From positions 186,001 to 250,000 of the forward strand of contig JAUIKF010000001.1 in NCBI GenBank assembly GCA_030430575.1: 64,000 nucleotides of DNA, read 5' to 3'. The stretch comes from Bacteroidia bacterium (GTDB lineage: Bacteria; Bacteroidota; Bacteroidia; J057). Below are positions 38,275 through 46,630 of the stretch, piece after piece; position 1 is the first letter of the stretch, and every line of letters starts with the position of its first letter. A model generated the notes under the pieces. That model was not told the DNA's origin and did no database searches. It was given only the letters and a program-made list of their open reading frames with translations. The position numbers and the translations under genes were made by a program.

Positions 38275-39516
38275 ATGTTTCCTTTACCCCTAGGACTTGC
38301 TGTTTTTTTTTGTTTGCTGACAAGCTCTCTTTTTTCCCAAAATCTTCAAAAGGCAGCTATCGCTCCCCATGATAGTGAAACGCCGATTTCCTTCCGCGTC
38401 TCCCACCAGTCCCTTTCTTTTCAAGACTCTATCGTTCAGATTAGTTTACATACTTCTCCGACAGAAGCTGTGCGCCTATTCAATACGAGTGTGAAAGTAT
38501 GGGAGGGAAAAAACATTCAAAATGAGTTCAGTCAGACAGGCGTTTTGCTGGAAGATGGTCTGCGGATAGAATTGCCCCGAGATGAACTGTTTTTCACCTA
38601 CCACAATCACCTCATCTATACAGAGACTTTTCGCCAAAGTCTCGATGGGAAATGGCAATTTTCCATGTTGAGAGGGTATCGTATTCGAAAAAACGAACTT
38701 ATCCTTCAGGTGCGAGTTCTCGATACCCTTAAAGGACAGAATAGTCCAAAATGGTACTTCGCAGATGGTCAATATATCCTGAGTCCAAGAGCCGCGATGG
38801 CATCGCAACTAGATTCAACCGTAGTCATTGCAAGCCCAGGTCGAAAAGCCAATCAGCTTTCCTTTAAGCTCATTAATCTGCGAAGTAGGCGCATCCAGTT
38901 GACTCGGATGGTAGCCATTGGCCTCACCGCAAAACTCCCTTTTCAATCACTCAAAGGATTTGGGGTTAAAGAAATTCACCTAACAGACGATCAGATCATC
39001 GTTCATAGCCTGTATCAAATGGCTGAGGGTCCTATGGATCATTTGTTCAGTGGCCTGGATAGACAGGGAAATGTCCTTTGGGAAAAAAGCATTAAAGCTG
39101 AACTTGTGAGACGACCAGCATCCAGAGATGATTTTTTTATCCTTCAAAATCGCCCCATCATCTACCAGGTTCTGACAGCTATACACGGACCGAGTGGCAG
39201 AAAAATCTGGGAAAAATCACTATACGATTTGTACAATACCGACCCTAAATTCGAGTATGCGCTGGTCAAGCCAGAAAGCCTTAACATACTGGAAATCAGC
39301 CCTTTATTCGGCGATAAATACCTAGGGGTGATTCTGGGAAGACTGGATAAGGAAAGCAATCTCATCCAAGATCCCATCTTATACCTTTTTGATAAAAAAG
39401 GAAGAGTCGTCTACCGATACGAACTTGCAGAGCGGTCAGCTCACTGGTGCCTTTATAGCAAAGATGGACAATTCCATATTGCCAATGAACAAGCCCATTA
39501 TACTTTTAAACCCTGA
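38275..39516 (+). CDS. Exported protein with PQQ-like propeller segment, unknown function
   Basis: The start at 38275 (MFPLPLGLAVFFCLLTSSLF) yields a signal peptide and 413 residues. An in-frame ATG at 38230 lies in a degenerate repeat and is less likely. The middle and C-terminal parts have blades reminiscent of PQQ/beta-propeller repeats: FSGLDRQGNVLWEKSIKAEL, then HGPSGRKIWEKSLYDLYNTD and LFDKKGRVVYRYELAE. There is no lipobox or sorting domain, so I expect a periplasmic or outer-membrane-associated protein. I do not recognise a specific family. It ends about 40 bases upstream of the cysteine operon promoter. Confidence 0.7.
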   Translation: MFPLPLGLAVFFCLLTSSLFSQNLQKAAIAPHDSETPISFRVSHQSLSFQDSIVQISLHTSPTEAVRLFNTSVKVWEGKNIQNEFSQTGVLLEDGLRIELPRDELFFTYHNHLIYTETFRQSLDGKWQFSMLRGYRIRKNELILQVRVLDTLKGQNSPKWYFADGQYILSPRAAMASQLDSTVVIASPGRKANQLSFKLINLRSRRIQLTRMVAIGLTAKLPFQSLKGFGVKEIHLTDDQIIVHSLYQMAEGPMDHLFSGLDRQGNVLWEKSIKAELVRRPASRDDFFILQNRPIIYQVLTAIHGPSGRKIWEKSLYDLYNTDPKFEYALVKPESLNILEISPLFGDKYLGVILGRLDKESNLIQDPILYLFDKKGRVVYRYELAERSAHWCLYSKDGQFHIANEQAHYTFKP

Positions 39517-39557: not shown

Positions 39558-39588
39558 TTTGAAATTGATCAAGAACCTGATACTTTTG
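39558..39588 (+). promoter_or_regulatory. Bacteroidota promoter of the cysteine operon
   Basis: TTTG at 39558-39561 and TACTTTTG at 39581-39588 are separated by exactly 19 bases, which fits the known Bacteroidota sigma-ABfr consensus TTTG-N17-23-TAnnTTTG. Transcription would start about 5-8 bases downstream, at or next to the ATG at 39594, so the poly-Cys leader ORF would be translated from a leaderless or nearly leaderless mRNA. Confidence 0.7.
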
Positions 39589-39593
39589 GTCCA

Positions 39594-39689
39594 ATGAATT
39601 CCCAGAAATTCCATATTTCTCCCCTCCATCATCATACACATGCAGCTTGTTGTTGCTGCTGTTGTCTGCACAATTCATGGAGGTTATGA
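39594..39689 (+). CDS. Poly-cysteine leader peptide (31 aa), candidate attenuator
   Basis: The ATG at 39594 opens a 31-codon frame with HHHTHAACCCCCC in the middle and a TGA at 39687-39689. Six consecutive Cys codons (39648-39665, TGT/TGC mixed) are far outside chance for a spacer. They lie directly upstream of an intrinsic terminator and of cysteine-synthesis genes. In amino-acid attenuation, scarcity of the charged tRNA stalls the ribosome on such codons and lets RNA polymerase read past the terminator (established for trp, his and others; poly-Cys leaders are known in mycobacteria). Pairing between CCTCCAT (39623-39629) and ATGGAGG (39677-39683) encloses the Cys codons and could be the switchable stem. 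The peptide itself probably has no further function. Confidence 0.8.
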   Translation: MNSQKFHISPLHHHTHAACCCCCCLHNSWRL

Positions 39690-39738
39690 GGGTATTCATT
39701 GATAAAAATTAGCCAATAATTTTAACAGAATATTTCCA

Positions 39739-39766
39739 AGGCTCCACAGATGTGGGGCCTTTTTTT
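39739..39766 (+). terminator. Intrinsic terminator of the cysteine leader
   Basis: AGGCTCCAC (39739-39747) pairs with GTGGGGCCT (39752-39760, one G-T) across a 4-nt loop. A run of seven T follows (39760-39766). It lies between the poly-Cys leader and the CysM start at 39819, the position expected of an attenuator. Confidence 0.75.
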
Positions 39767-39818
39767 GTTTGCCATTTTCTTTACTCAATTCTTCATTTTC
39801 AATTCTCCATTTTCCATT

Positions 39819-40739
39819 ATGATTTCCCTTACTTCCATAGATCCTGCCCTCGTAGCCCGCATTGATCATGTCGAGAAACTGATCGGTAGAACGCCACTTT
39901 ATGGCATTCAACATGCCTTTTCGAAACCTGGCGTCCAACTCTTCGCCAAATTGGAATGGCAACAACTCGGCCAAAGCGTGAAGGCGCGGCCTGCCTTCCA
40001 AATCCTCAAAGATGCTTTGCTGAGTGGCCAGCTGCATCCAGGCAAACGCCTCCTGGACGCCAGTAGCGGCAATACAGCCATTGCCTATGCCAGCATAGGC
40101 GCAGCATTGGGGATAGCTGTCACCATTTGCCTTCCTGAAAATGCTTCTCCAGGCCGTAAGCACATGCTCCAAGCATTGGGGGCAGAAGTGATCTTCACGT
40201 CCCCGCTAGAAGGAACTGATGGCGCCCAAGCCGTCGCCAAAGAAATGGCAAGTGCCCGCCCAGACCGGTATTTCTACGCCGATCAGTACAACAATCCTAA
40301 TAACTGGAAAGCCCATTATTACAGCACTGCACGGGAGGTTTATCACCAGAGTTGTGGAAAGCTGACGCACTTTGTGGCGGGGCTGGGGACGAGTGGCACC
40401 TTCACCGGGACTACCCGCAAGCTCAGAGAAGTCAATCCCAATATTGAGTTTATTGCCTTGCAACCCGACTCGCCGATGCATGGACTGGAAGGGTGGAAGC
40501 ACATGGAGACAGCACAGGTTCCTGGCATTTATGATGAGACCTTGGCGGATCGTATTCAGGAGGTGTCAACAACTGCTGCCTTGGATTGGCAACAGCGATT
40601 TGCCCAAACAGAAGGGATGCTTCTGAGCCTATCTGCAGCGGCTAATCTTGCTGGAGCTATTCAAGTAGCAGAAGCCATCGATGAGGGATTAATTGTAACC
40701 CTATTTCCAGATGATGGAAGCAAGGAAGTGATGAATTAG
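39819..40739 (+). CDS. cysM: Cysteine synthase family protein (CysM-like)
   Basis: I start at the ATG at 39819 (MISLTSIDPALVARIDHVEK), because the upstream frame runs through the terminator. The product has 306 residues. It is a PLP fold-type II enzyme: the lysine binding PLP is K55 in GQSVKARPAF, the substrate loop is DASSGNTAIAYA, and the phosphate-binding loop is GLGTSGTFTG. It should attach a sulfide group to an activated serine. The neighbours encode a thiocarboxylate-type carrier, its activator and a JAMM peptidase, so sulfur may come from the carrier protein, as for mycobacterial CysM, rather than from free sulfide. Which activated serine it uses is not shown. It is the first gene after the attenuator. 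Confidence 0.87.
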   Translation: MISLTSIDPALVARIDHVEKLIGRTPLYGIQHAFSKPGVQLFAKLEWQQLGQSVKARPAFQILKDALLSGQLHPGKRLLDASSGNTAIAYASIGAALGIAVTICLPENASPGRKHMLQALGAEVIFTSPLEGTDGAQAVAKEMASARPDRYFYADQYNNPNNWKAHYYSTAREVYHQSCGKLTHFVAGLGTSGTFTGTTRKLREVNPNIEFIALQPDSPMHGLEGWKHMETAQVPGIYDETLADRIQEVSTTAALDWQQRFAQTEGMLLSLSAAANLAGAIQVAEAIDEGLIVTLFPDDGSKEVMN

Positions 40740-40787: not shown

Positions 40788-41279
40788 ATGAAAACTTCAG
40801 ATTTTTTGCCCTTGATCATTATGCCTGAAGCGCGAAAAACCATGACCAACCATGCCGTTTTTAGCTTTCCAGATGAATGTGTAGGCTTCATTTTTGGGGT
40901 GGAGACGGGCCAAAAACGCATTGTGACGCGCGCCATCCAGACATGCAATGTCAAGGAAGGTGATAAACGCAGGCGTTTTCAAATCAGCCCTTTGAGCTAT
41001 ATGAAAGCGGAGAAATATGCCCTTCAACATGGCCTTACCCTGTTGGGCATCTATCACTCTCACCCCCTACACCCAGCAGTTCCTTCGGAACACGACCTTA
41101 AGCAGGCAGTGCCTTATTTCTCCTATCCCATCATCTCTGTAACAGCAGACAATATTCAGGCGATTCGCTCTTGGCAGCTGGGTGAATCGGGCGAATTTGC
41201 TGAAGAAATACTTGAACCCTTTGAAGCGCCAACAGCCATTACTTCGTCCCTTGCCATCCATACACCCTCGATTCACTAA
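40788..41279 (+). CDS. mec: JAMM/MPN+ metallopeptidase (Mec+-like)
   Basis: A 163-residue zinc peptidase of the M67 family. The JAMM signature is complete: E30 in PDECVGFIFG, H90 and H92 in IYHSHPLHP, and S100 and D103 in PSEHD. In mycobacteria the homologue Mec+ releases cysteine from the C-terminus of the carrier protein CysO. The gene order here, between cysM and a carrier ending in GG, supports the same reaction. It starts 48 bases after cysM and ends 33 bases before the carrier gene. Prokaryotic JAMM proteins can also trim other ThiS/MoaD-like precursors, but the carrier here already ends in GG, so precursor trimming does not seem necessary. Confidence 0.88.
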   Translation: MKTSDFLPLIIMPEARKTMTNHAVFSFPDECVGFIFGVETGQKRIVTRAIQTCNVKEGDKRRRFQISPLSYMKAEKYALQHGLTLLGIYHSHPLHPAVPSEHDLKQAVPYFSYPIISVTADNIQAIRSWQLGESGEFAEEILEPFEAPTAITSSLAIHTPSIH

Positions 41280-41312: not shown

Positions 41313-41585
41313 ATGTCATATATTCAAATCCCTACGCCCTTGCGTAAATTCACCCAAAATCAGGCTTCTTTTGAGACAAACGCCCAAACGGTGGGGCAAT
41401 CCCTTCATGAATTGGTTACTCAATATCCAGACTTGGGAAAACACCTGCACGATGCGGCGCAAAAGCTAAAACCTTTTATCCGCGTGTATCTCGGCGAAGA
41501 GGACATTCAATACTTGCAAGCAGAAGCTACGCCTGTCCCAGAAAATGCCGTCATTAGCATTATTCCTGCGATAGCAGGCGGGTAA
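41313..41585 (+). CDS. cysO: ThiS/MoaD-like sulfur carrier protein (CysO-like)
   Basis: A 90-residue beta-grasp protein that ends in AGG, the di-glycine tail needed for adenylation and thiocarboxylation. Features of the family are the N-terminal strand IQIPTPLRKFT, the helix LHELVTQYPDLGKHLHDA, and the closing PENAVISIIPAIAGG. The C-terminus needs no processing. With the adjacent MoeB-rhodanese enzyme as activator, the CysM-like synthase as acceptor and the JAMM enzyme as releaser, it is best read as the sulfur donor for cysteine. A role in molybdopterin or thiamin is less likely, because no moa or thi genes are nearby. Confidence 0.88.
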   Translation: MSYIQIPTPLRKFTQNQASFETNAQTVGQSLHELVTQYPDLGKHLHDAAQKLKPFIRVYLGEEDIQYLQAEATPVPENAVISIIPAIAGG

Positions 41586-41643: not shown

Positions 41644-42813
41644 ATGGATTCTCCTTTCTCGAAAGCCGAAATAGAACGCTATAGCCGCCATTTGATCATC
41701 CCAGAATTTGGGATGGCGGGTCAGAAGAAGCTGAAAGCTGCCAAAGTCTTGGTGGTGGGAAGTGGTGGCCTGGGCAGTCCTCTGCTGCAATACCTCGCCG
41801 CTGCGGGGGTAGGGACCATTGGCATCGTAGACTATGATGTCGTGGATGACAGCAATCTCCAGCGCCAAGTGTTATTTGGAGTGGAGTCTGTGGGCAAGTC
41901 TAAAGTAGAAGAGGCCAGAAGGCGCATTATTTCTCTCAATCCGCATATCGATGTGCGTACCTACAATACCCTACTATCATCTGAAAATGCACTCGACATA
42001 CTTCAAGACTACGATGTTGTCGCCGACGGCACAGACAATTTCCCCACCCGCTACCTCGTCAACGATGCTTGTGTATTGCTCGATAAACCCAATGTTTACG
42101 CCTCCATTTTCCGGTTTGATGGGCAGGTTTCTGTATTTAATTATGTAGATGAAAATGGAGAAAGAGGGCCCAATTATCGGGACCTCTTCCCTACCCCACC
42201 GCCCCCTGGGCTGGTGCCGAGCTGTGCCGAAGGCGGGGTAATCGGCGTGCTGCCAGGCATCATCGGCTCCCTGCAAGCCCTTGAAGTGATCAAGGTGATC
42301 ACAGGCGTAGGAGAACCCCTGAGTGGGCGGCTCTTTACCTTTGATGCCCTGTCATTTCAGATGCGCACGCTGAAGCTTCGCCGAGATCCTAACAATCCGC
42401 TGAATGGCGAACATCCGACACTAACGGAGTTGATCGATTATGTGCAATTCTGCGGTGTACCGCATGAGGAGAAGGAATTCGAAGCAGGGCTTGAGGTAGC
42501 AGAAATCAGTGTATCTGATTTCAAAAACATACAAGATCAAAACACTGACTATCAGCTCATTGACGTGCGGGAACCGCACGAATTTGAGATTGTGAACCTC
42601 GAAGGTGAGCTTATTCCTTTAAGCAAAATCGAGCAATATGTGGATAACATCTCCACAGAGAAACCCGTTATTGTGCACTGCCGAAGTGGCGTGCGAAGTG
42701 CAAAAGCCATTAAAAAATTACAATTGCTCAAAAGTTTTCCCAATATTTACAACCTGAAGGGCGGCATTTTGGCTTATGCGAAAGAAGTAGATAGCTCGCT
42801 GCCTGTGTATTGA
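41644..42813 (+). CDS. moeZ: MoeB/ThiF-type adenylyltransferase fused to rhodanese domain (MoeZ-like)
   Basis: The 389 residues comprise an E1-like domain (about 1-270) and a rhodanese domain (about 285-389). The ATP-binding loop is VVGSGGLGSPLLQYLAAAG, and the nucleotide-contacting segment is DDSNLQRQVLFG. The catalytic cysteine is C194 in VPSCAEGG. The rhodanese active cysteine is C346 in VHCRSGVRS. It would adenylate the carrier's GG terminus and transfer sulfur onto it. One oddity is that the zinc-binding CxxC seen near this point in many MoeB proteins is absent: the corresponding stretch reads RDPNNPLNGEHPT. It starts 58 bases after the carrier gene. Confidence 0.9.
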   Translation: MDSPFSKAEIERYSRHLIIPEFGMAGQKKLKAAKVLVVGSGGLGSPLLQYLAAAGVGTIGIVDYDVVDDSNLQRQVLFGVESVGKSKVEEARRRIISLNPHIDVRTYNTLLSSENALDILQDYDVVADGTDNFPTRYLVNDACVLLDKPNVYASIFRFDGQVSVFNYVDENGERGPNYRDLFPTPPPPGLVPSCAEGGVIGVLPGIIGSLQALEVIKVITGVGEPLSGRLFTFDALSFQMRTLKLRRDPNNPLNGEHPTLTELIDYVQFCGVPHEEKEFEAGLEVAEISVSDFKNIQDQNTDYQLIDVREPHEFEIVNLEGELIPLSKIEQYVDNISTEKPVIVHCRSGVRSAKAIKKLQLLKSFPNIYNLKGGILAYAKEVDSSLPVY

Positions 42814-42957
42814 GGAAGAAAGATCAAGTGCAAATTCAAGCTCAAGTTCAAAAAAAAATGAGATTGAGGTTGAATTTGAGTTTGAATTTGAATTTGAACT
42901 TCTCTTCCTCCTGTTCTTTGACGTATGATGCATCCCGAGATTCTCGGAACAATTTGT

Positions 42958-43620
42958 ATGTCATTTTCTAATATAAAAACCCTGTGTGAGCAATACTCAC
43001 AAGTGAATTACCGCGAAAGACTGGTGGAGGTCTTCCGGAATTATGACAGGGTACTGGTGACTTCCTCTTTTGGAACGACATCGGTCATTCTACTACACCT
43101 ACTCCACGAAGTAAAGCCGGATCATCCAGTGCATTTCATCGACACGACCTATCACTTCAGCGAGACGCATCAGTATATGCAGTCGCTGATCGATCGGTGG
43201 GGACTCAACGTCGTCCATGTACGGCCTGAGCCGATTGGAAATGCCCGTACCCGGCGCGAACGCACCTGGGCACACCACCCTGACAGATGCTGTCAGGTCA
43301 ATAAGGTGAGCCCCATCAACCGTCTGAAAAAACAACATGACGTTTGGATTTCTGGCATGATCGGCGGTATCACGGAATACCGCAAAAACCTTCCTATTTT
43401 CAAACAGGAGGGGAAACTCATGCGCTTTTATCCCTTGATCGACATGACACCTGAAGACGCGGATCTCTATAAGACGATCTATGAGCTGCCAGCCCATCCC
43501 CTGGAAGGGCAAGGCTATGGCTCCATCGGCTGCACACACTGTACCCTCAAAGGCCACGGCCGGAGCGGGCGCTGGGCTGATAAGCCTAAGACTGAGTGTG
43601 GGCTACACGTCTTTGCGTAA
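42958..43620 (+). CDS. cysH: Adenylyl-/phosphoadenylyl-sulfate reductase
   Basis: CysH reduces activated sulfate to sulfite with thioredoxin as donor. I prefer the ATG at 42958 (MSFSNIKTLCEQ, 220 aa); an earlier ATG at 42925 precedes a palindrome (CCGAGATTCTCGG) and gives an atypical start. Visible motifs are TSSFGTTSVILLHLL (PP-loop-type phosphate binding), the double cysteine DRCCQVNK, GCTHCTLKGHGR and the active TECGLH near the end. The CC...CxxC set indicates the iron-sulfur, APS-reducing class, although substrate choice is not certain. It follows moeZ after 144 bases, so it may be the last gene of the cysteine operon. A duplicate of its last 20 codons occurs at 45448. Confidence 0.87.
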   Translation: MSFSNIKTLCEQYSQVNYRERLVEVFRNYDRVLVTSSFGTTSVILLHLLHEVKPDHPVHFIDTTYHFSETHQYMQSLIDRWGLNVVHVRPEPIGNARTRRERTWAHHPDRCCQVNKVSPINRLKKQHDVWISGMIGGITEYRKNLPIFKQEGKLMRFYPLIDMTPEDADLYKTIYELPAHPLEGQGYGSIGCTHCTLKGHGRSGRWADKPKTECGLHVFA

Positions 43621-45586: not shown

Positions 45587-46630
45587 TTAAACCAGATGAT
45601 TCTCTCGCATCCATTCATCATTAAAGACTGTACTCAAATAATTCCTTCCAGAATCAGGGAGCAACATGACCACCACTGCATCTTCTTCTAATCGTCTCCC
45701 TATTTTCAAAGCCCCTGCTATAACCGCCCCTGCTGATGAACCGACCATCCAAGCCTCTTTTTGGGCAACTTCTCGAGCCATCCCATAGGCTTCTTTATCT
45801 GTAATGGTAATGACTTCGTCAATCAAATTTAAATCCATGGTATCAGGCAAAAAATCCTGCCCAATGCCCTCGATTTTATAGCTCTCCGCTTTTCCATCCG
45901 TACCATCATATAAGTGACGATAGAGTGAGCCTTCAGCATCAATACCTATGACTTTAATTTGAGGATTTTGCTCCTTGAGGTATCTCGCTGTTCCTGTAAT
46001 CGTCCCCCCTGTACCCATACCTGCGATGAAGTGAGTAATTTGTCCACCGGTGTCTTGCCAGATTTCGGGCGCAGTCGTTTCGTAATGCGTCAATGGATTA
46101 TTTTCGTTTGCATATTGGTTCGGACAGAAGGAATTGGGCATTTCTTCTGCCAACCGCCTGGCCACTTGGTAGTAACTTCGTGGGTCATCAGGCTCCACCC
46201 CACAGGGGCAGATGACAATTTCCGCCCCATATCCTTTGAGGATATTACGCTTTTCCTGGCAAACCTTGGCATTCATCGTAAAAATAACTTTGTATCCTTT
46301 TACCACAGCGGCCTGTGCCAGGCCGATGCCTGTATTCCCTGAAGTAGGTTCTATGATTGTTCCGCCAGGTTTTAACAAACCTAGGCGTTCTGCGGCTTCG
46401 ATCATCCGAATGCCGATCCGATCTTTGCTACTGCCACCTGGATTAAAAAACTCCATTTTACCTAACATCAAGGGACGCAAGTTTTCACTGATCTTGTTCA
46501 TTTTGATCAATGGAGTTTTACCGATCAATTGCAAAATGTTGTCTTGGTATTTGATATCCTTGTGGGTGAGGGTTCCAAATGTGAAAGGCGAGGTATCACT
46601 TCTGTTTAATTTATTTGTTGTAGAGATCAT
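45587..46630 (-). CDS. PLP-dependent cysteine synthase / cystathionine beta-synthase-like enzyme
   Basis: A 347-residue fold-type II PLP enzyme. The PLP lysine lies in PGGSSKDRIGIRM, the substrate loop is EPTSGNTGIGLA, and the phosphate loop is GMGTGGTITGTARYL. The SSKDRI context and the YDG...IEGIGQDFLP segment resemble CBS and related enzymes more than CysM/CysK. There are no CBS regulatory domains. The N-terminal 28 residues (ISTTNKLNRSDTSPF) are not conserved-looking, and the true start may be internal. Plausible reactions are cysteine or cystathionine synthesis, or a diaminopropionate-type beta-replacement as in SbnA. It is 43 bases downstream of an ATP-grasp gene, which points towards a two-enzyme biosynthetic unit. 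Confidence 0.85.
   Translation of the reverse strand: MISTTNKLNRSDTSPFTFGTLTHKDIKYQDNILQLIGKTPLIKMNKISENLRPLMLGKMEFFNPGGSSKDRIGIRMIEAAERLGLLKPGGTIIEPTSGNTGIGLAQAAVVKGYKVIFTMNAKVCQEKRNILKGYGAEIVICPCGVEPDDPRSYYQVARRLAEEMPNSFCPNQYANENNPLTHYETTAPEIWQDTGGQITHFIAGMGTGGTITGTARYLKEQNPQIKVIGIDAEGSLYRHLYDGTDGKAESYKIEGIGQDFLPDTMDLNLIDEVITITDKEAYGMAREVAQKEAWMVGSSAGAVIAGALKIGRRLEEDAVVVMLLPDSGRNYLSTVFNDEWMRENHLV

Follow-up and report, generated by a model that had tools for sequence, protein, structure and literature searches.

A conserved poly-cysteine leader ORF followed by a terminator upstream of a Bacteroidota cysteine operon: a probable ribosome-mediated attenuator

The window (the whole stretch of 64,000 nucleotides that was analysed, from a genome of 8.16 Mb) carries a short ORF with a run of cysteine codons between a 428-codon ORF, which ends at 39516, and a set of genes for cysteine synthesis. 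The features are listed in order below.

39558-39588, + strand: Bacteroidota-type promoter, read from the sequence (TTTG at 39558-39561, a spacer of 19 nt and TACTTTTG at 39581-39588)
39594-39689, + strand: leader ORF of 31 codons, MNSQKFHISPLHHHTHAACCCCCCLHNSWRL, TGA at 39687-39689; from the ORF list, with counterparts in relatives
39623-39629, + strand: region 1, CCTCCAT, which can pair with region 2 (7 bp; duplex energy p 0.30)
39648-39665, + strand: six adjacent Cys codons, TGT TGT TGC TGC TGT TGT in the sequence, the proposed sensor of charged tRNA-Cys
39677-39683, + strand: region 2, ATGGAGG, the proposed antiterminator strand, whose TGGAG pairs with CTCCA of region 3
39738-39766, + strand: intrinsic terminator from the terminator scan (-16.3 kcal/mol), with a stem of 10 pairs at 39738-39761 and T7 at 39760-39766
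39742-39746, + strand: CTCCA of region 3, the terminator 5' arm, read from the sequence
39752-39759, + strand: region 4, GTGGGGCC, read from the sequence
39819-40739, + strand: cysM-like PLP cysteine synthase, the first operon gene, with its start taken as 39819 (PF00291, PALP, 1.9e-60)
40788-41279, + strand: JAMM/Prok-JAB peptidase, Mec-like (PF14464, 2.7e-20)
41313-41585, + strand: ThiS/MoaD-type sulfur carrier with C-terminal GG, CysO-like (PF02597, 2.3e-10)
41644-42813, + strand: ThiF + rhodanese activating enzyme, MoeZ/MoeB-like (PF00899, 7.2e-81; PF00581, 1.3e-11)
42925-43620, + strand: cysH, (phospho)adenylyl-sulfate reductase (PF01507, PAPS reductase, 7.9e-32)

The initial annotation had described a near-consensus promoter and a 31-codon ORF with six adjacent Cys codons, followed by a GC stem running into a T7 tract, and each of these was found where listed. 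Assignment of the promoter to the Bacteroidota type follows what we take to be the consensus behind TTTG/N19/TACTTTTG. The end of the TACTTTTG box is separated from the ATG at 39594 by 5 nt. In the leader peptide HHHTH stands ahead of CCCCCC. Between the last Cys codon and region 2 there are 11 nt, and 3 nt separate region 2 from the stop codon; the terminator begins 48 nt past the leader stop. The terminator scan found two terminator-like sites in 801 bases, compared to 0.6 expected from shuffles, and the fold of RNA 39594-39775 was better than those of 200 of 200 shuffles (z -3.28). Rfam yielded no match above the gathering score in the whole window, and the matches below that score mostly cover the terminator. 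With no above-gathering match over the element, a known Rfam element (SAM riboswitch, T-box or others) is ruled out.

The expected gene order of cysM, JAMM peptidase, carrier protein, moeZ and cysH was borne out by Pfam matches in that order. The curated NCBIfam cut-offs were reached only by cysH (PRK02090, 181.7 bits, cut-off 154) and, for the MoeZ/MoeB-like protein, by a MoeB subfamily model (PRK05690, 298.5 bits, cut-off 266), while the best match of the cysM-like protein, TIGR01138 cysM, scored 287.8 bits and lies under its cut-off of 394.2. The names cysM, mec and cysO are therefore drawn from family and gene order. We take CysM, Mec, CysO and MoeZ to represent the CysO-thiocarboxylate pathway of cysteine synthesis, with sulfate reduction added to it. 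Shortly past the operon, the opposite strand encodes another PALP-family enzyme that resembles cysteine synthases, at 45587-46630 (-).

Near home, 60 genomes were searched (the window's own, G000, and 59 relatives). A cysM of 63-64% identity was found in G002, G003 and G004, all from the same family, and a poly-Cys leader is present upstream of cysM in 4 of 4 family genomes with a close cysM. Just upstream of cysM in G002, G003 and G004 these leaders read MYLISHIHLLPPNSSACACCCCCQLPFGRWRNRYAYE, MQLIHLHTTPFHMHICACCCCMEHTQVESVLY and MQNLRFRTFDHSTTLNKCCCCCMSIPWSGFFI, respectively. The other genome of the same genus that was sampled, G001, is without a close cysM (best E 1.9e-31), and ten relatives with a more distant cysM (L009-L018) had no poly-Cys leader within 1.5 kb upstream.

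On a wider scale, named genomes were searched with a profile. The best 80 of 228 confirmed relatives were kept, and leaving out L052 and L055, which have less than 250 nt of upstream DNA, reduced them to 78 loci. A uORF was defined as ATG-led, at most 80 codons long, with at least 4 adjacent Cys codons and no more than 1500 nt upstream of cysM. By this criterion 63 of the 78 loci carry a poly-Cys uORF, a count of loci related by descent rather than of independent events, and 18 carry two or more. Isolates with the element include Flexithrix dorotheae (L036), Reichenbachiella agariperforans (L097) and Pseudoflavitalea rhizosphaerae (L109). The same criterion applied to the reverse strand gave 0 of 78, and Markov simulations gave a mean of 0.05 of 78 loci with a maximum of 1, which rules out a chance repeat. 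Conservation of the Cys run in related genomes had been set beforehand as a test that could refute attenuation, and the run is there; both in the window, with six Cys codons, and in these 63 relatives, codons for the end product stand in a leader before the matching pathway. A looser definition (at least 3 Cys codons within 700 nt) again gave 63 of 78, with 44 single and 19 double loci, and 5 of the 15 loci left without a uORF in 700 nt have the element farther upstream (L056, L064, L085, L098 and L114). No ORF with at least 3 adjacent Cys codons was found in 10 of the 78. Among these ten, cysM starts 6-10 nt past another open frame in L093 and L103, and L106 has an ORF that is rich in Cys but never has three in a row. 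When runs of every amino acid were counted on the forward strand in the 600 nt upstream, Cys runs were found in 58 loci, Leu runs in 19 and runs of the other 18 amino acids in 0-2 each; the Leu runs are the same repeat in another frame. Codon use within the Cys runs was TGT 332 and TGC 114, indicating that the Cys reading frame is kept and not one exact triplet.

For the anatomy of the switch we took 83 uORFs with at least 4 Cys codons (runs of 4-8 codons), with the window and L007 added. An intrinsic terminator between the leader ORF and the first gene was detected in the window and after 73 of the 83 uORFs; among the other ten, several have a hairpin that can be made out by eye. The distance from the leader stop to the terminator is 18-97 nt in the 72 elements whose stem reaches -10 kcal/mol or better. 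Pairing of the 45 nt after the Cys run with the terminator 5' arm and loop (the 2:3 duplex) had a mean energy of -15.4 kcal/mol compared to -9.5 kcal/mol after dinucleotide shuffling, and reached the level of 5% or fewer of shuffles in 52 of 72 elements; 20 of 72 fail. From this pairing of post-Cys sequence with the terminator 5' arm in 52 elements, we take the conserved switch to be an antiterminator. By ungapped Watson-Crick pair length, 24 of 72 elements beat 95% of shuffles; the duplex-energy test, which allows G-U pairs and bulges, was used instead. Both counts, like that of the loci, come from kin and do not stand for independent events. Exchanging region-3 arms between loci proved a poor control, since GGAAAGG/CCTTTCC is common to many of them; an arm from another locus was equal or better in 47% of cases on average. 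Many relatives have the trio GGAAAGG/CCTTTCC/GGAAAGG, while the window instead has TGGAG/CTCCA.

Both pairings were scored on an alignment of 46 elements that was built without structure, the elements being hand-picked from 66 references to thin near-copies. The terminator (3:4) was 95.2% paired, with 46 double-change cells compared to 11.3 in shuffles. Eight fixed 2:3 columns were 71.1% paired, a value as high in 0 of 500 shuffles, and the 2:3 covariation score (0.240 vs. 0.186 shuffled) was likewise as high in 0 of 500. Double changes in 2:3 were few: 11 cells were counted compared to 7.2 in shuffles, a number reached by 73 of 500, and when the 2:3 columns were slid, some versions had as many changes or more. 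When prefixes were folded with a ribosome placed at the second Cys codon, region 3 had 8.5 bases paired upstream compared to 5.3, and 41 of 71 elements passed at 5%. Region 2 begins 5-26 nt past the last Cys codon, and 7-17 nt past it in 61 of 72 elements. Given the size of a ribosome footprint, this spot would be occupied once a ribosome has reached the stop codon and free while it is still on the first few Cys codons.

In the window itself the antiterminator is weak. Its 2:3 duplex, TGGAG/CTCCA, has 5 bp at -8.4 kcal/mol compared to -7.5 kcal/mol shuffled (p 0.35), in contrast to the mutually exclusive antiterminator of most relatives (52 of 72 elements), and equilibrium folds of the window with a stalled ribosome retain the terminator. 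In the prefix fold before the 3' arm is made, region 3 had 7.55 bases paired upstream compared to 4.8 (p 0.05, 20 shuffles). With such energies the case for the window leans on the conserved anatomy more than on its own pairing. The initial annotation had proposed CCTCCAT/ATGGAGG as the switchable stem. These 7 bp can indeed pair, but the window's 1:2 duplex that includes them is not stronger than those of shuffled leaders, and the general switch is 2:3 instead. Counterparts of 6-7 bp occur in four clade members, with duplex energy p values of 0.30 (window), 0.03 (L038), 0.10 (L007) and 0.23 (L059). Across relatives, 1:2 pairing passed at 5% in 7 of 72 elements by pair length and in 18 of 82 by energy (100 shuffles), which rules out this stem as the general switch.

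The start of the leader had been called leaderless, a reading of the gap alone between the promoter box and the ATG, and leaderless initiation of the window's uORF is plausible from its sequence. A strict TANNTTTG box was found within 120 nt upstream of 26 of the 83 uORFs; for 24 of the 83 a box is no more than 60 nt from the ATG, compared to a chance rate of 0.05. Measured from the end of the box to the ATG, the gap is 4-7 nt for 8 of the 26, the window's among them, and 10-28 nt for another 16; the last two have 65 and 74 nt. The short gap thus stands for the window but is not conserved; a leaderless start is likely in some uORFs without being a rule, and as a defining feature of the element it is ruled out.

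Taken with the conservation of the Cys run (63 of 78 forward, 0 of 78 reverse), the best-supported reading of the element is the cysteine-responsive attenuation proposed at the outset, and we put at roughly 87% the probability that this is ribosome-mediated attenuation of transcription, with the supply of Cys-tRNA as its signal. RNA polymerase would start just ahead of the ATG, with a ribosome translating the 31-codon leader behind it. When cysteine is ample, the ribosome would pass the Cys codons to the stop and cover region 2 (39677-39683); the terminator at 39738-39766 would then fold and most transcripts would end before cysM. When charged tRNA-Cys is scarce, the ribosome would stall on the Cys run and leave region 2 free to pair with the terminator 5' arm before the 3' arm is made, and transcription would proceed into cysM-JAMM-carrier-moeZ-cysH. 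We infer, then, that the leader is translated, that ribosomes stall on it, that the operon responds to cysteine and that the weak 2:3 pairing of the window suffices.

An alternative sensor is the peptide itself. A nascent chain of Cys (and His) residues might respond to thiol redox or to a metal such as Cu(I), with altered stalling controlling the same terminator. Leader peptides with Cys motifs respond to copper in other bacteria, the window's peptide has HHHTH before CCCCCC, and a 1-Cys peroxiredoxin is the first gene after the uORF in L056 and L085. By eye, however, the His cluster is not common to the listed leaders, and the length of the peptide and its sequence outside the Cys run vary widely. 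The identified downstream genes are moreover mostly those of cysteine and sulfur, and we consider a peptide sensor improbable.

Somewhat less probable still is an action of the uORF by way of Rho, or on cysM translation by coupling or reinitiation, in which case the hairpin would be incidental. Actinobacterial cys leaders are described as having no conserved terminators, with Rho proposed for them (PMC1262725), and one uORF before cysH, in L205, is followed by a pyrimidine-rich stretch with no terminator evident by eye. Against this, the terminators found after 73 of 83 uORFs covary and the 2:3 competition is preserved, and the leader stop in the window is 129 nt upstream of the cysM ATG, far for reinitiation.

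A functional small protein or a chance trinucleotide repeat is very improbable: a poly-Cys peptide could bind metals and TGY repeats do occur elsewhere in the genome (40 TGYx4 places, control 14), but the reverse strand (0 of 78), the simulations (0.05 of 78), the mixture of TGT and TGC, and the 30 TGYx4 places that were read, of which five besides the window's lie in ATG-led short ORFs and none is leader-like, all speak against a repeat.

Serial elements are the least expected part of the case. Two poly-Cys uORFs in series within 700 nt of cysM were present in 19 of 78 loci, with their Cys runs 123-239 nt apart. At 11 loci (L037, L039-L044, L057, L071, L080 and L084) there are two uORFs with at least 4 Cys codons, each with its own detected terminator. 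A promoter box lies upstream of the first element in 11 of the 19 serial loci and upstream of the second in 1 of 19, suggesting that the serial units share one promoter. Of the 19 second Cys runs, 15 were longer than the first, 2 shorter and 2 of the same length (sign test 0.002, which ignores kinship). Mapped on a cysM tree of 82 rows, with L052 and L055 (upstream DNA too short) scored as single, the tandem state needed 10 changes on the best tree, whose bootstrap is unsettled, and at least 3 changes were forced by well-supported branches. Serial doubles therefore appear to have been gained or lost several times.

Poly-Cys uORFs were also found before other genes. In L056 (5815-5919) and L085 (6102-6200) the gene of a 1-Cys peroxiredoxin lies between the poly-Cys leader and cysM, a hint that some relatives have peroxide defence under cysteine control as well; the intervening gene of L040 encodes a peroxiredoxin C-terminal domain. 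Other poly-Cys uORFs stand before the gene of a Cys/Met PLP enzyme (L056) and before cysH-cysD-cysN (L102). The best 30 cysK loci of a 118-genome sample showed an upstream ORF with at least 3 adjacent Cys codons in 11 of 30, compared to 0 of 30 on the reverse strand; six of these lie within about 250 nt of cysK and five about 0.9-1 kb upstream with an intervening gene. Among the best 30 cysD loci a uORF was found in 3, compared to 0 on the reverse strand, and one of the three (L211) is doubtful. The cysD locus of the window's own genome (L229) had no poly-Cys uORF within 1.5 kb.

A covariance model, R1, gave a Cys-run ORF (at least 3 codons) near the match in 10 of 30 loci read from a phylum sample, the window's included. 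The genes found next to these ORFs include cysK (L145 and L147, the latter the same element as L250 of the cysK survey), a nitrite/sulfite reductase-like gene (L150), an ABC ATPase (L149) and, by eye, a cysM-like gene (L154) and a peroxiredoxin-like gene preceded by a tandem pair (L148). As a genome-wide finder R1 was too unspecific, with many of its matches in 198 genomes covering the terminator half only. The TGYx4 pattern was too noisy for this use. It occurs at 40 places in the window's own genome, compared to 14 for the reversed control pattern, and only the window's resembles a leader among the 30 that were read; four of the five other places in ATG-led short ORFs lie inside same-strand open frames of 286-997 codons, and no T5 run was found after the fifth, an ORF of 8 codons.

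The genomes G104, G138 and G232 carry the FMO family PF02327, which we take to be a mark of green sulfur bacteria. Their loci L149, L155 and L160 have poly-Cys uORFs with terminator-like hairpins by eye, followed by an ABC ATPase, a 156-aa protein without an NCBIfam match and a long ORF, respectively. Rfam searches of 16 further loci returned two SAM riboswitches and one tRNA only, none of them over a uORF. At L205:3141-3582 (-) a SAM riboswitch (RF00162, 68.8 bits) and a terminator-like hairpin (by eye) are followed by a uORF with CCCC and CCC runs, then by a 242-codon ORF taken as cysH and by cysD, an arrangement of two different sulfur sensors in series. At L147:1782-1897 a SAM riboswitch (81 bits) on the opposite strand adjoins the cysK poly-Cys leader.

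A wider reading, which we hold to be about evenly balanced, is that cysteine control of this kind is old and spans the whole Bacteroidota lineage including the green sulfur bacteria, and that some of its members have come to carry double gates in series. Such a gate would have two leader-terminator units served by a single promoter, the first Cys run usually being the shorter, and transcription would have to clear two cysteine checkpoints that differ in stall probability. One genome or more would combine a SAM riboswitch serially with a poly-Cys uORF.

Attenuators of the trp/his type in enteric bacteria combine a leader peptide rich in the product amino acid with a 2:3 antiterminator and a 3:4 terminator. 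The present element shares the leader and the terminator, and most of its relatives (52 of 72 elements) the antiterminator as well, for which the window's own pairing is weak. Its 1:2 protector stem is not general, its amino acid is cysteine and its promoter is of the Bacteroidota type. Poly-Cys leaderless attenuators of mycobacterial cys operons were reportedly described by Canestrari et al. in 2020. The likeness to mycobacterial and actinobacterial cys leaders is a short ORF with a Cys run before a cysteine operon, and the window's ATG, like the mycobacterial ones, may sit at the transcription start. Differences from the mycobacterial leaders are the other phylum, the many relatives with an apparent short 5' UTR and the serial doubles. 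Whereas no conserved terminators are reported for the actinobacterial leaders, those of Mycobacterium among them (PMC1262725), here both the terminator and the competing antiterminator are conserved. The element would work like the mycobacterial poly-Cys leaders without being classed as one, as its terminator is present and covarying.

The motif uORFC-8-2, found before cysS in Rhodobacterales and proposed to act by ribosome-mediated attenuation, also has a uORF with adjacent Cys codons, stems and a U-run terminator (PMC8632094); as given there it has two Cys codons, a cysS target and an alphaproteobacterial host, compared to 4-8 codons, biosynthesis genes and Bacteroidota here. Within the phylum, strong clues for leader-peptide attenuation before amino-acid operons, the same general mechanism as proposed here, are given for Flavobacterium psychrophilum in a section on attenuation that names no cysteine operon or poly-Cys leader (PMC9723704). 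Other papers mention sORFs of B. thetaiotaomicron reminiscent of attenuating leaders (PMC7366714) and a count of leader genes in Bacteroidetes for which reinitiation was proposed (PMC4833913). As described in 2010, leader-peptide systems had been known from Proteobacteria and Actinobacteria and from no other group until a case in Firmicutes joined them (PMC2965389). The literature matches listed, which cover titles and the beginnings of abstracts, with supplements and most subscription journals outside their range, contained no poly-Cys leader in Bacteroidota. The type of mechanism is already known; what is new, as far as searched, is its form in Bacteroidota, in which an antiterminator competes and units occur in series.

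As no Rfam family matched the elements that were searched, such control elements may go unannotated. Many Bacteroidota appear to use a leader peptide for cysteine and sulfur genes, and the regular anatomy makes the targets predictable. The serial doubles would lend themselves to testing how a response is shaped by two attenuators in a row.
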